A stretch of 64,000 nt of DNA, taken from Ramlibacter henchirensis (GTDB lineage Bacteria; Pseudomonadota; Gammaproteobacteria; Burkholderiales; Burkholderiaceae_C). The stretch's first letter is position 1, and each line of letters starts with the position of its first letter. The stretch spans positions 1,736,001-1,800,000 of the forward strand of contig NZ_SMLM01000001.1 of NCBI RefSeq assembly GCF_004682015.1, given 5' to 3'. Below, one piece after another: positions 733 through 49,318 of the stretch. The notes beneath the pieces were generated by a model. That model ran no database searches. It had not been told where the DNA came from and saw nothing but the letters and a program-made list of their open reading frames with translations. The position numbers were made by a program, and so were the translations under genes.

Positions 733-1947
733 TTATGTGGCCTGGGCCTCGTCGGCCAGGACTTCCTCCGGCGAGGGCGAGCGGCCCGGGGCGGCCATGG
801 GCCAGGCGATCACGAGCCAGAGGAACGTCAATCCGGCACAGACCGCGAACAGCCCCTGCGCCCCAACGTGCTTGGTGAGCCAGCCGCCGACCGCTCCGCC
901 GGCAAAGAAGCCCAGCGATTGGAGGGTGTTGTAGACGCCCAGCGCGGCGCCGCGGGCATGCGGCGGTGCGACGCGCGAAGCCATGCTGGGCTGGCTGGCC
1001 TCGAGCACGTTGAAGCCGCAGAAGAAGACGAACAGCACCGCGGCCAGCGCCGCAATCGAGGGCCGGTCGGCCACCAGCGCCAGCGCCACCTGCACGACCC
1101 CCACCAGACCGATCGAGGCCAGGAACACCGCGCGCAGGTAGCCGCGACGCTCCAGCGGGAACAGCGTCAGCCCCATCACGGCGAACGAGCCCAGCACCGT
1201 CGGCAGGTAGACCGTCCAGTGCCGATCCTTTTCCAGCCCCGCCTGCACCAGCAGGGCGGGAATCGCCACCCACATCGCCAGCTGCACGGCATGCAGCACG
1301 AAGACGCCGACGTCCAGGCGCAGCAGCCCCGGATGGCGCAGCACTTCGCGGAGTCCGCCTCGCGGCCTGGCGTCCGCCTTGTGCTCGGCCGGTTCCGGCG
1401 GCGTCCACCAGGTGACGATGCCCATGCAGGCCATCGCCAGGACGCCGGTGATGGCGAACAGGATCGGCAGTCCACCTACTCCGGCAAGCACGGGGGCGGC
1501 CACGAGGGACAGCGCGAACATCAGCCCGATGCTCGCGCCCACCATCGCCATCGCCTTGGTGCGGACCTCGTCGCGCGTCTGGTCGGCCAGCAAGGCGGTG
1601 ACCGCGGCCGACACCGCGCCGGCGCCCTGCAGCGATCGCCCGACGATCAGCCACAGCAGGTTGTCCGCCACCGCCGCCACGAAGCTGCCGCCCGCGAACA
1701 CGGCCAAACCGATGAGGATCACGCGCTTGCGGCCGAACCGGTCCGACGCCATGCCGAACGGGATCTGCAGCAAGCCCTGGGTCAGGCCGTAGATGCCCAT
1801 CGCGAGGCCCACGAGCGCCGCGTCCTGGCCGCCGGGATAGCGCGCCGCCTCGAGCGCGAACACGGGCAGCACCAGGAAAAGGCCGAGCATGCGGGCGGCG
1901 AACACCAGCGAGAGCGAGCCGCTGGCGCGGCGCTCCAGCGGCGTCAT
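733..1947 (-). CDS. MFS transporter (YajR-like drug/solute exporter family)
   Basis: Twelve-helix major facilitator of 404 residues, inner membrane, substrate unknown. It opens [20 protein letters not shown] and then a hydrophobic helix. The loop after helix 2 carries the MFS signature ([13 protein letters not shown]), as in proton-driven exporters. An upstream in-frame ATG at 2007 would add 20 polar residues atypical of the family, so 1947 is preferred. The gene lies between ssb (same strand, downstream) and divergent uvrA; with those two DNA-repair genes as neighbours its physiological role is not indicated by context. Specific substrate calls would be guesses. Confidence 0.88.
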
Positions 1948-45094: not shown

Positions 45095-47818
<2,724 letters not shown>

Positions 47819-47821
47819 CGT

Positions 47822-47830
47822 GCTCACCTT
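47822..47830 (-). promoter_or_regulatory. metH Shine-Dalgarno region complementary to the riboswitch
   Basis: On the minus strand the ribosome site is AAGGTGAGC, five bases from ATG 47818. The seven bases GGTGAGC are the exact reverse complement of GCTCACC (47859-47865, minus strand), the last strand of the SAH aptamer. Pairing of the two would hide the ribosome site. Confidence 0.7.
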
Positions 47831-47858
47831 CGTCTGATCTGCGGCCGGGCCGCGTCGA

Positions 47859-47926
47859 GGTGAGCGTCGTTGGGAATCTCAAGCCTGACGCCGGACGGGC
47901 CGGCGCTGCAACGCTCCTTGAGAGAG
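47859..47926 (-). promoter_or_regulatory. SAH riboswitch
   Basis: Minus-strand sequence shows the SAH-riboswitch core. P1 is CTCAAG (47917-47922) pairing with CTTGAG (47878-47883). Next come the conserved GAGCGTTGC segment, an internal GC-rich hairpin (GCGCCGG/CCGGCG type), the loop GTCAGG and the final CAACGACGCTCACC, which pairs back with GAGCGTTG as the pseudoknot. This family (known from Ralstonia and relatives) binds S-adenosylhomocysteine and turns on ahcY, metH or metF. The aptamer begins about where transcription should start from the TAAAAT at 47932-47937. Confidence 0.88.
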
Positions 47927-47931
47927 GCGTC

Positions 47932-47937
47932 ATTTTA
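47932..47937 (-). promoter_or_regulatory. -10 element of the metH C-terminal gene
   Basis: TAAAAT read on the minus strand, placing the transcription start near 47925-47926, right at the 5' edge of the SAH aptamer. Thus the leader is almost entirely riboswitch. Confidence 0.6.
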
Positions 47938-48052
47938 GCGGCAGGGTGCGACGCAGCATCGCGAGTCACCGGCACCTGAGCTTGGCGAACCTACAGCGCC
48001 GCGCGAAAACGCCTGACAGCACCGCTCGCGCGCGGCGCGGACACTGCGGCGC

Positions 48053-48244
48053 ATGGGAATCTTCGACCTGCCAACCTACGTCTGGCCCTTCATCCTGGCC
48101 GTCGTGGCCGCGGTGACCGGCAAGGTGGTGTCCGGCCGCGTGCGCGACGACCCGGGCTCGTTCCCAGGCTGGATCCTCTATGCCGTGGCGATCGGCTGCG
48201 TGATCATCGGCCTGGCGACCTGGTGGCTGAGCCATCAGGTGTAG
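48053..48244 (+). CDS. Small two-helix membrane protein between the metH halves
   Basis: A 63-residue protein on the strand opposite to both metH genes. It begins MGIFDLPTYVWPFILAVVAA, a first TM helix. A polar loop (GRVRDDPGSFPG) follows, then a second TM helix WILYAVAIGCVIIGLATWW. No family recognised. GACACT (48040-48045) ends seven bases before its ATG, consistent with the leaderless layout of neighbours. It physically separates the two metH genes and its transcript would run antisense into the N-terminal metH gene. Confidence 0.6.
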   Translation: MGIFDLPTYVWPFILAVVAAVTGKVVSGRVRDDPGSFPGWILYAVAIGCVIIGLATWWLSHQV

Positions 48245-48271: not shown

Positions 48272-49318
48272 CTACGCCGCTTCCTTGTAGAAGAACTCGC
48301 GCCGGCGGCTGCGCGTGGGCAGCGGCGCGACGGCTTGCCCGATCGCGGCGATGTGCTCGGGCGTGGTGCCGCAGCAGCCGCCCACGATGTTCACCAGCCC
48401 CTCGGCCGCGAAGTCGCGCAGCAGACGCGAGGTGACGTCGGGCGTTTCATCGAAACCGGTCTCGCTCATCGGGTTGGGCAGCCCCGCGTTGGGATAGCAG
48501 CTGATGAAGGTGTCGGGCGCGGCCTTGGCCAGCTCCTGGATGTAGGGCCGCATCAGCGCGGCGCCCAGCGCGCAGTTCAGGCCGACGGCCAGCGGCTGCG
48601 CATGGCGCACGCTGTACCAGAAGGCGGTGACGGTCTGGCCGCTGAGGATGCGGCCGGATGCATCGGTCACCGTGCCGCTGATGATCACCGGCAGGCGCTG
48701 GCCGCTCTTCTCGAAGAATTCGTCGATCGCGAACAGCGCCGCCTTGGCATTGAGCGTGTCGAAGATGGTTTCCACCAGCAGCAGGTCGACACCGCCTTCC
48801 ACCAGGCCATCGACCTGTTCGTAGTAGGCCGCACGAAGCTGCTCGAAGTCGACGTTGCGGGCGCCGGGGTCGTTCACGTCGGGGCTGATGCTGGCGGTGC
48901 GCGGCGTGGGGCCGAGCGCGCCGGCCACGAAGCGCGGCTGGTCGGGTGTGGAGAACTTGTCGGCGGCTTCGCGCGCGATCCGGGCCGCCACCACGTTCAG
49001 CTCATGGGAGATGTGCGCCAGCTCGTAGTCGTCCTGCGCCAGCGCGTTGGCGCCGAAGGTGTTGGTCTCGATGATGTCGGCGCCGGCCGCGAGGAAGCCT
49101 TCGTGGATGTCGCGGATCACTTCGGGCCGCGTGAGCACCAGCAGCTCGCCGTTGTTCTTCAGGTCCTTGGGATGCTCGCGGAAGCGCTCGCCGCGGAAGT
49201 CGGCTTCGGTGAGCTTCAGGCGCTGGATCATGGTGCCCATCGCGCCATCCAGGATCAGGATGCGTTTCTCGAGCAGGGCCGGCAGGGCCTGGCCGCGGGT
49301 GTAGGCGATGGGCTTCAT
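48272..49318 (-). CDS. metH: Cobalamin-dependent methionine synthase, N-terminal homocysteine-binding protein
   Basis: A 348-residue homocysteine S-methyltransferase domain, equal to MetH residues 1 to about 350. It has [34 protein letters not shown] with the first zinc-binding Cys and [14 protein letters not shown] with the other two. This is the normal split MetH arrangement of many Burkholderiales, where the two proteins work together. The -10 TACAAT (49327-49332, minus strand) ends eight bases before the ATG, so this half is expressed from a leaderless promoter with no riboswitch. It diverges from recQ. Confidence 0.94.

Follow-up and report, generated by a model that had tools for sequence, protein, structure and literature searches.

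A SAH riboswitch with probable translational control over part of a split methionine synthase gene in Ramlibacter henchirensis

Riboswitches that turn a gene on by recapturing a strand from its ribosome site are fewer than OFF switches, and the ligand of the SAM/SAH riboswitch is believed to act in the OFF direction by masking the ribosome site. The SAH riboswitch class, RF01057, was reportedly described by Wang et al. in Mol Cell in 2008. In the portions of Leyn et al. (2014; PMC4239095) that bear on this class, ahcY and metF form the core of the regulon and MetH is a taxon-specific target in Comamonadaceae; translational riboswitches are treated in those portions in general terms only. A Kd of 20 nM for SAH is cited for the class in the part of PMC11188199 that deals with it.

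The aptamer and its split target gene

The window is the whole stretch of DNA analysed here, 64,000 nucleotides in length, and the features of interest lie on its minus strand (Table 1). Its host is a soil bacterium of the genus Ramlibacter, usually assigned to Comamonadaceae. The original prediction had read an SAH-aptamer core on the minus strand and had proposed a covariance search with the SAH riboswitch model as a check. This search bore out the reading, with a match over the full length of the model that is the sole Rfam match above threshold in the 64-kb window. The GAGCG/CGCTC complementarity that marks the pseudoknot of RF01057 was found between GAGCGT and ACGCTC, strands that presumably form the pseudoknot of the class. 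The aptamer stands directly upstream of metH2, and so in the leader of a SAM-cycle gene (the targets of the class are ahcY, metF, and metH). From its class, the element would be expected to bind SAH and reject SAM. An aptamer that has decayed or become unresponsive is very improbable: seven consensus positions are absent between P1 and the 3' strand, but the full-length match is 20 bits over the cut-off with high posterior probability, and 52 genus leaders as well as 24 of 80 public metH loci (the best 80 of at least 597) have an aptamer ahead of metH2.

Table 1. Features of the metH2 leader and its surroundings in window coordinates.
Feature	Position	Strand	Basis
metH2, gene behind the riboswitch; split cobalamin-dependent methionine synthase, C-terminal part (907 aa)	45095..47818	-	NF007024, 1518 bits, profile 343-1229 of 1234
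metH1, located upstream of the riboswitch; split MetH, N-terminal part that binds homocysteine (348 aa)	48272..49318	-	NF007024, profile 8-337
metH2 start codon ATG	47818-47816	-	sequence reading
AGGTGAGC, Shine-Dalgarno region and anti-aptamer strand	47822..47829	-	8-bp Watson-Crick run; 6.98 expected pairs
GC-rich linker hairpin between the two arms, GCGGC/GCCGC	47841..47853	-	predicted fold
SAH riboswitch aptamer, RF01057	47855..47924	-	cmscan 57.4 bits, gathering 37, model 1-78
GCTCACC, 3' aptamer strand; alternative partner is the ribosome site	47859..47865	-	reading, runs, folds
CAACGACGCTCACC	47872-47859	-	sequence reading
P1 3' strand CTTGAG	47883-47878	-	sequence reading
GAGCGTTGC	47916-47908	-	sequence reading
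GAGCGT, 5' strand of pseudoknot helix	47911..47916	-	complementary to ACGCTC 47867-47862; reading and helix energy
P1 5' strand CTCAAG	47922-47917	-	sequence reading
TAAAAT, probable -10 element	47932..47937	-	reading; hexamer kept in relatives

The gene behind the riboswitch had been called metH. It does encode methionine synthase, but only the C-terminal part of it; a separate ORF encodes the homocysteine domain. The riboswitch precedes metH2 only, of the two split-metH ORFs. Read on the minus strand from 47937, the leader consists of TAAAAT, the SAH aptamer, the GC-rich linker hairpin, AAGGTGAGC, and the ATG at 47818. Transcription had been predicted to start from TAAAAT. The hexamer is kept, with TA[AGC][AG]AT at this site in 52 of 52 metH2 leaders of the genus and in 23 of 24 other metH2 leaders examined, although a promoter scan of the window found none with a -35 partner. 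The transcript probably starts at about 47925. Between metH1 and the riboswitch there is also an antisense ORF of 63 aa (48053-48244, plus strand) that looks membrane-like by eye. By tblastn among loci L001-L219 it was found in L001, the window's own locus, and L028 only, many of these loci spanning only about 300 upstream bases.

Aptamers are carried by 59 of 60 genomes of the genus and by 199 of 200 sampled genomes of the family. Among 139 loci (L001-L139), 58 lead into metH2 and 78 into ahcY; the other three, L080, L085, and L088, were excluded for want of a usable gene match. In the best 80 of at least 597 matching public metH stretches, the Rfam SAH aptamer occurs in 28 (18, 4, 6, and 0 per 20), 24 of which are positioned before split metH2 and four before an apparently full-length metH (L192, L193, L195, and L199). 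The aptamer in these four has the tail GCAAACC or ACAGACC; GGTTTGC or GGTTTGT comes further downstream, followed by a T-rich region, and this is perhaps the same principle written in other letters. In L195, the one unsplit-metH locus that the terminator scan covered, a T-rich stretch after a hairpin suggested a terminator by eye, but the scan found none and we claim none there. When a plasmid collection was searched with 901 bases around the leader, each of the 35 records obtained covered less than 80% of the query; the best plasmid records listed cover about a third of it, apparently the coding ends, and gave no help with the leader.

Pairing of the 3' strand with the ribosome site

GGTGAGC (47828-47822, minus strand), which lies in the ribosome site belonging to the ATG at 47818, is the exact complement of GCTCACC (47865-47859), as the original prediction had it. 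Inclusion of AGGTGAGC lengthens the pairing to 8 bp. When the window's own leader was dinucleotide-shuffled 200 times, no shuffle reached this run, which is thus above chance. Within GCTCACC, GCTC is common to the pseudoknot helix and ACC is a free tail. The pseudoknot and ribosome-site pairings cannot coexist because the bases 47865-47862 (GCTC) are shared, and the claim that they are mutually exclusive follows from this.

To compare relatives we used 79 metH2 leaders with an aptamer, 52 from the genus and 27 others, after removal of duplicates (L140, L141, L142, and L151). The leaders from outside the genus are not a random sample, six having been found by aptamer score (best 30 loci) and 21 by MetH2 likeness (best 80). 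L149 was kept by regex although it had no Rfam match at the cut-off, and L153, L157, and L197, which the regex missed, were added from Rfam. L217, which had a regex aptamer without Rfam match, was dropped, and L206 and L219 were left out because the gene start was absent. A Watson-Crick run of at least six between the 3' strand and the downstream leader was found in 74 of the 79, and 64 of the 79 were at or below 0.05 against 200 dinucleotide shuffles each. GGTGAG occurs within 70 nt of the aptamer in 67 leaders (45/52 genus, 22/27 others); of the 52 genus leaders, 44 have it no more than 25 nt from a candidate start in frame. Taking the best in-frame start of each leader, we obtained at least five expected pairs of the 3' strand with the start region in 46/52 genus leaders and 21/27 others, where the best start is possibly not the true one (e.g. 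L120, L145, L156). As a control, the start regions of 217 long ORFs, called by length and uncurated from 400 kb of the same genome, were grafted behind the window aptamer. At least five expected pairs with GCTCACC were reached in two of these with the first start and in eight with the best of all candidate starts. This difference indicates that the pairing of the metH2 3' strand with the start region is not chance, and the complementarity looked for in close relatives is there.

It could be argued that, for all that the aptamer is genuine, GGTGAGC owes its conservation to ribosome binding alone, the match to GCTCACC being incidental and regulation taking another route. GGTGA itself belongs to the extended Shine-Dalgarno sequence, and AGGTGA pairs with an assumed 16S-type tail at -8.5 kcal/mol. 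However, GGTGAG was found at -25 to +3 of any candidate start in only three of the 217 long ORFs. Nor was it at the start in any of 17 split metH2 genes without aptamer, which include Paraburkholderia, Caballeronia, Cupriavidus, and Aquabacterium and are mostly from other genera, so that kinship is unmatched. The ahcY leaders, by contrast, keep GGTGAG away from the start codon (see below). Covariation of the pair, which had been proposed as a check, speaks on both sides. Among genus leaders, which show little change at the pair, there is none; elsewhere it is confined to the first flanking pair. Little variation is seen in the six core pairs, as the aptamer fixes CTCA. The first flanking pair of leaders outside the genus shows compensated changes (T-A 11, A-T 2, C-G 2) and is paired in 15 of 22 leaders against a shuffled mean of 8.8, with none of 2000 shuffles as high, whereas within the genus it is at chance (26/45 against a mean of 24.9, p 0.19). 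At the second flanking pair, leaders outside the genus give a chance value (14/22 against 12.7) and those within it fall below chance (12/45 against 18.1), and the third is at chance outside (5/22 against 5.2), with 23/45 against 22.4 within. When 3' arms were swapped among leaders outside the genus, the own arms paired better than each of 200 swaps; within the genus they were no better, with 190 of 200 swaps reaching the observed value. Taken together, we consider it improbable that the complementarity is incidental.

Fewer than five expected pairs at the start were found in 12 of the 79 leaders, which counts against the reading of an ON switch. These are L018, L036, L065, L077, L079, and L093 in the genus and L118, L126, L153, L155, L157, and L163 outside it. 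In L065 the tail is CGCTCATTTC (CATTTC in place of CACC), and CGCTCAT/ATGAGCG can form seven Watson-Crick pairs over the start codon, a point in favour of the switch. In L118, L120, L155, L156, and L163 (outside the genus; Mitsuaria, Rhizobacter, and others) GGTGAG lies away from any in-frame start, as in ahcY leaders. L145 (Albitalea) also has an ahcY-like GGTGAG position by eye, yet was counted via an in-frame candidate start. From these leaders the output platform seems to have changed within the bacterial group.

In nested folds the 3' strand and GGTGAG pair at a probability of at least 0.5 in 64 of the 67 leaders that hold GGTGAG. The program favours this OFF pairing because it cannot draw the pseudoknot, and the modelled folds present GCTCACC/GGTGAG as a natural alternative pairing and no more. 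When the aptamer strands were blocked, the mean unpaired probability of GGTGAG rose from 0.03 to 0.35 across the 67 leaders, the window giving 0.32; GGTGAG is thus not fully freed in the model. In isolation, the pseudoknot strands were calculated at -7.9 kcal/mol (6 bp) or -11.6 kcal/mol (extended) and the rival helix at -11.4 kcal/mol (7 bp) or -14.5 kcal/mol (extended). By these calculations the rival helix would be somewhat stronger than the pseudoknot helix, as a ligand-free OFF default would need. The whole-fold stability of the window leader is not unusual against shuffles (z -0.32), and this energy is uninformative.

Proposed switch and its control point

We conclude that the SAH riboswitch is very likely a translational ON switch for metH2 that works by capture of the pseudoknot strand. 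This is based on the aptamer match, the exact and conserved complementarity to the start site, the absence of the latter in the 17 aptamer-less metH2 genes, and the lack of a terminator-like site. The covariance match and the complementarity kept in relatives also support the original proposal of a translational switch in which the 3' strand captures the ribosome site. The wiring of the ribosome site appears to be a well-supported example of a known sensor class; the ON direction is drawn from what is known of that class.

In this model, transcription would start beside the aptamer. In the absence of SAH, the helices P1 and P2 may be present, but nothing would hold the pseudoknot strand, and its GCUCACC end would pair with GGUGAGC of the ribosome site and block initiation. 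With a build-up of SAH, the pseudoknot GAGCGU/ACGCUC would be stabilised and GCUC taken back. This would free the Shine-Dalgarno sequence, so that MetH2 is made and homocysteine recycled.

Translation is the most likely control point because no intrinsic-terminator-like site (a stem followed by a T run) was found between aptamer and gene in 47780-48080 of the window and because the rival helix ends 3 nt before the ATG. These same two observations argue against the idea that the OFF pairing acts on transcription or RNA stability, by Rho entry or RNase cleavage of the untranslated leader, more than on initiation. It is common for RNA with a blocked ribosome site to become open to Rho, and the four loci with unsplit metH have another complementary pair after the aptamer (e.g. 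GCAAACC/GGTTTGC), showing that platforms vary; even so, we regard this route as unlikely. Translation, rather than RNA decay or Rho termination, is probably the primary output of the metH2 riboswitch.

The ahcY leaders and comparison with known systems

The genome has two SAH riboswitches, the copy in the window and one before ahcY (L002). The second has the same aptamer and the same GGTGAG anti-strand but differs in that GGTGAG is off the start codon and an extra covarying helix, CCACTG/CAGTGG, comes after. GGTGAG lies within 70 nt of the aptamer in 73 of 78 ahcY leaders and 36-83 nt (median 59) upstream of the start; in none of those 73 is it within 25 nt of the start. For several loci outside the genus, the start position was an extrapolation, since the protein match was partial. 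Because the ahcY leaders keep GGTGAG away from the start, the motif goes with the aptamer rather than with ribosome sites in general, and its retention reflects pairing with the aptamer as well as ribosome binding. Directly after the aptamer, ahcY leaders have CCACTG or variants (CCACCTTCCG, CCACGGC, CCGCAGG, and others) with a downstream complement, and this helix has at least six Watson-Crick pairs in 53 of the 78. The own CCACTG/CAGTGG arms beat each of 200 swaps both within the genus and outside it. With this helix and GCTCACC/GGTGAG together, the ahcY leader can be read as a competition of helices.

Two other helices of the ahcY leaders did less well. The one between the ribosome site and upstream sequence was weak in the swap test, being reached by 4 of 200 swaps overall, 13 within the genus, and 56 outside. 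An extension of the anti-aptamer hairpin failed it (198 of 200 overall, 80 in the genus, 198 outside). In L002 (1501-1640) and other ahcY leaders the covarying CCACTG/CAGTGG helix overlaps the region of the GCTCACC/GGTGAG hairpin. L088 (about 800-970, minus strand) holds a degenerate copy of an ahcY leader, with CGCGCA in place of CGCTCA, ahead of a short reading frame whose beginning resembles ahcY and which ends early. It lies about 8 kb from the copy L022 on the same contig and looks by eye like a decaying duplication.

The chances seem to us about even that one GGTGAG anti-strand serves the two SAH riboswitches via two output devices, fused to the Shine-Dalgarno sequence in metH2 and in a multi-helix competition of GCTCACC/GGTGAG against CCACTG/CAGTGG in ahcY, and that SAH thereby controls the C-terminal part of split MetH only. 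If so, two SAH riboswitches in one genome offer a ready comparison of the same aptamer driving different platforms, and part of a split methionine synthase would be controlled by SAH, the inhibitory product of methylation.

As a comparison with the RF01057 class, the window aptamer has the full-length covariance match, the conserved pseudoknot strands, and the position before a SAM-cycle gene, and differs in loop-length variation only. The sensor class and its link to metH in Comamonadaceae are already published (PMC4239095), and in the portions of that study noted above the riboswitch class, target gene, and bacterial group are the same as here. The difference from those portions is that we compared the ribosome-site pairing over 79 leaders and that the target is the C-terminal part of a split MetH. 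In the parts of the SAH riboswitch literature covered, a scope outside which the founding papers of the class lie, we did not find the ribosome-site platform of metH2 drawn; comparison among leaders suggests that this platform is well supported. The wiring can be followed through dozens of relatives and set against controls. Another related system is the SAM/SAH riboswitch (a subject of PMC7367207). In general, its pseudoknot strand is likewise coupled to the ribosome site. It differs in its presumed direction, OFF, whereas in the metH2 leader the ligand should free the ribosome site.
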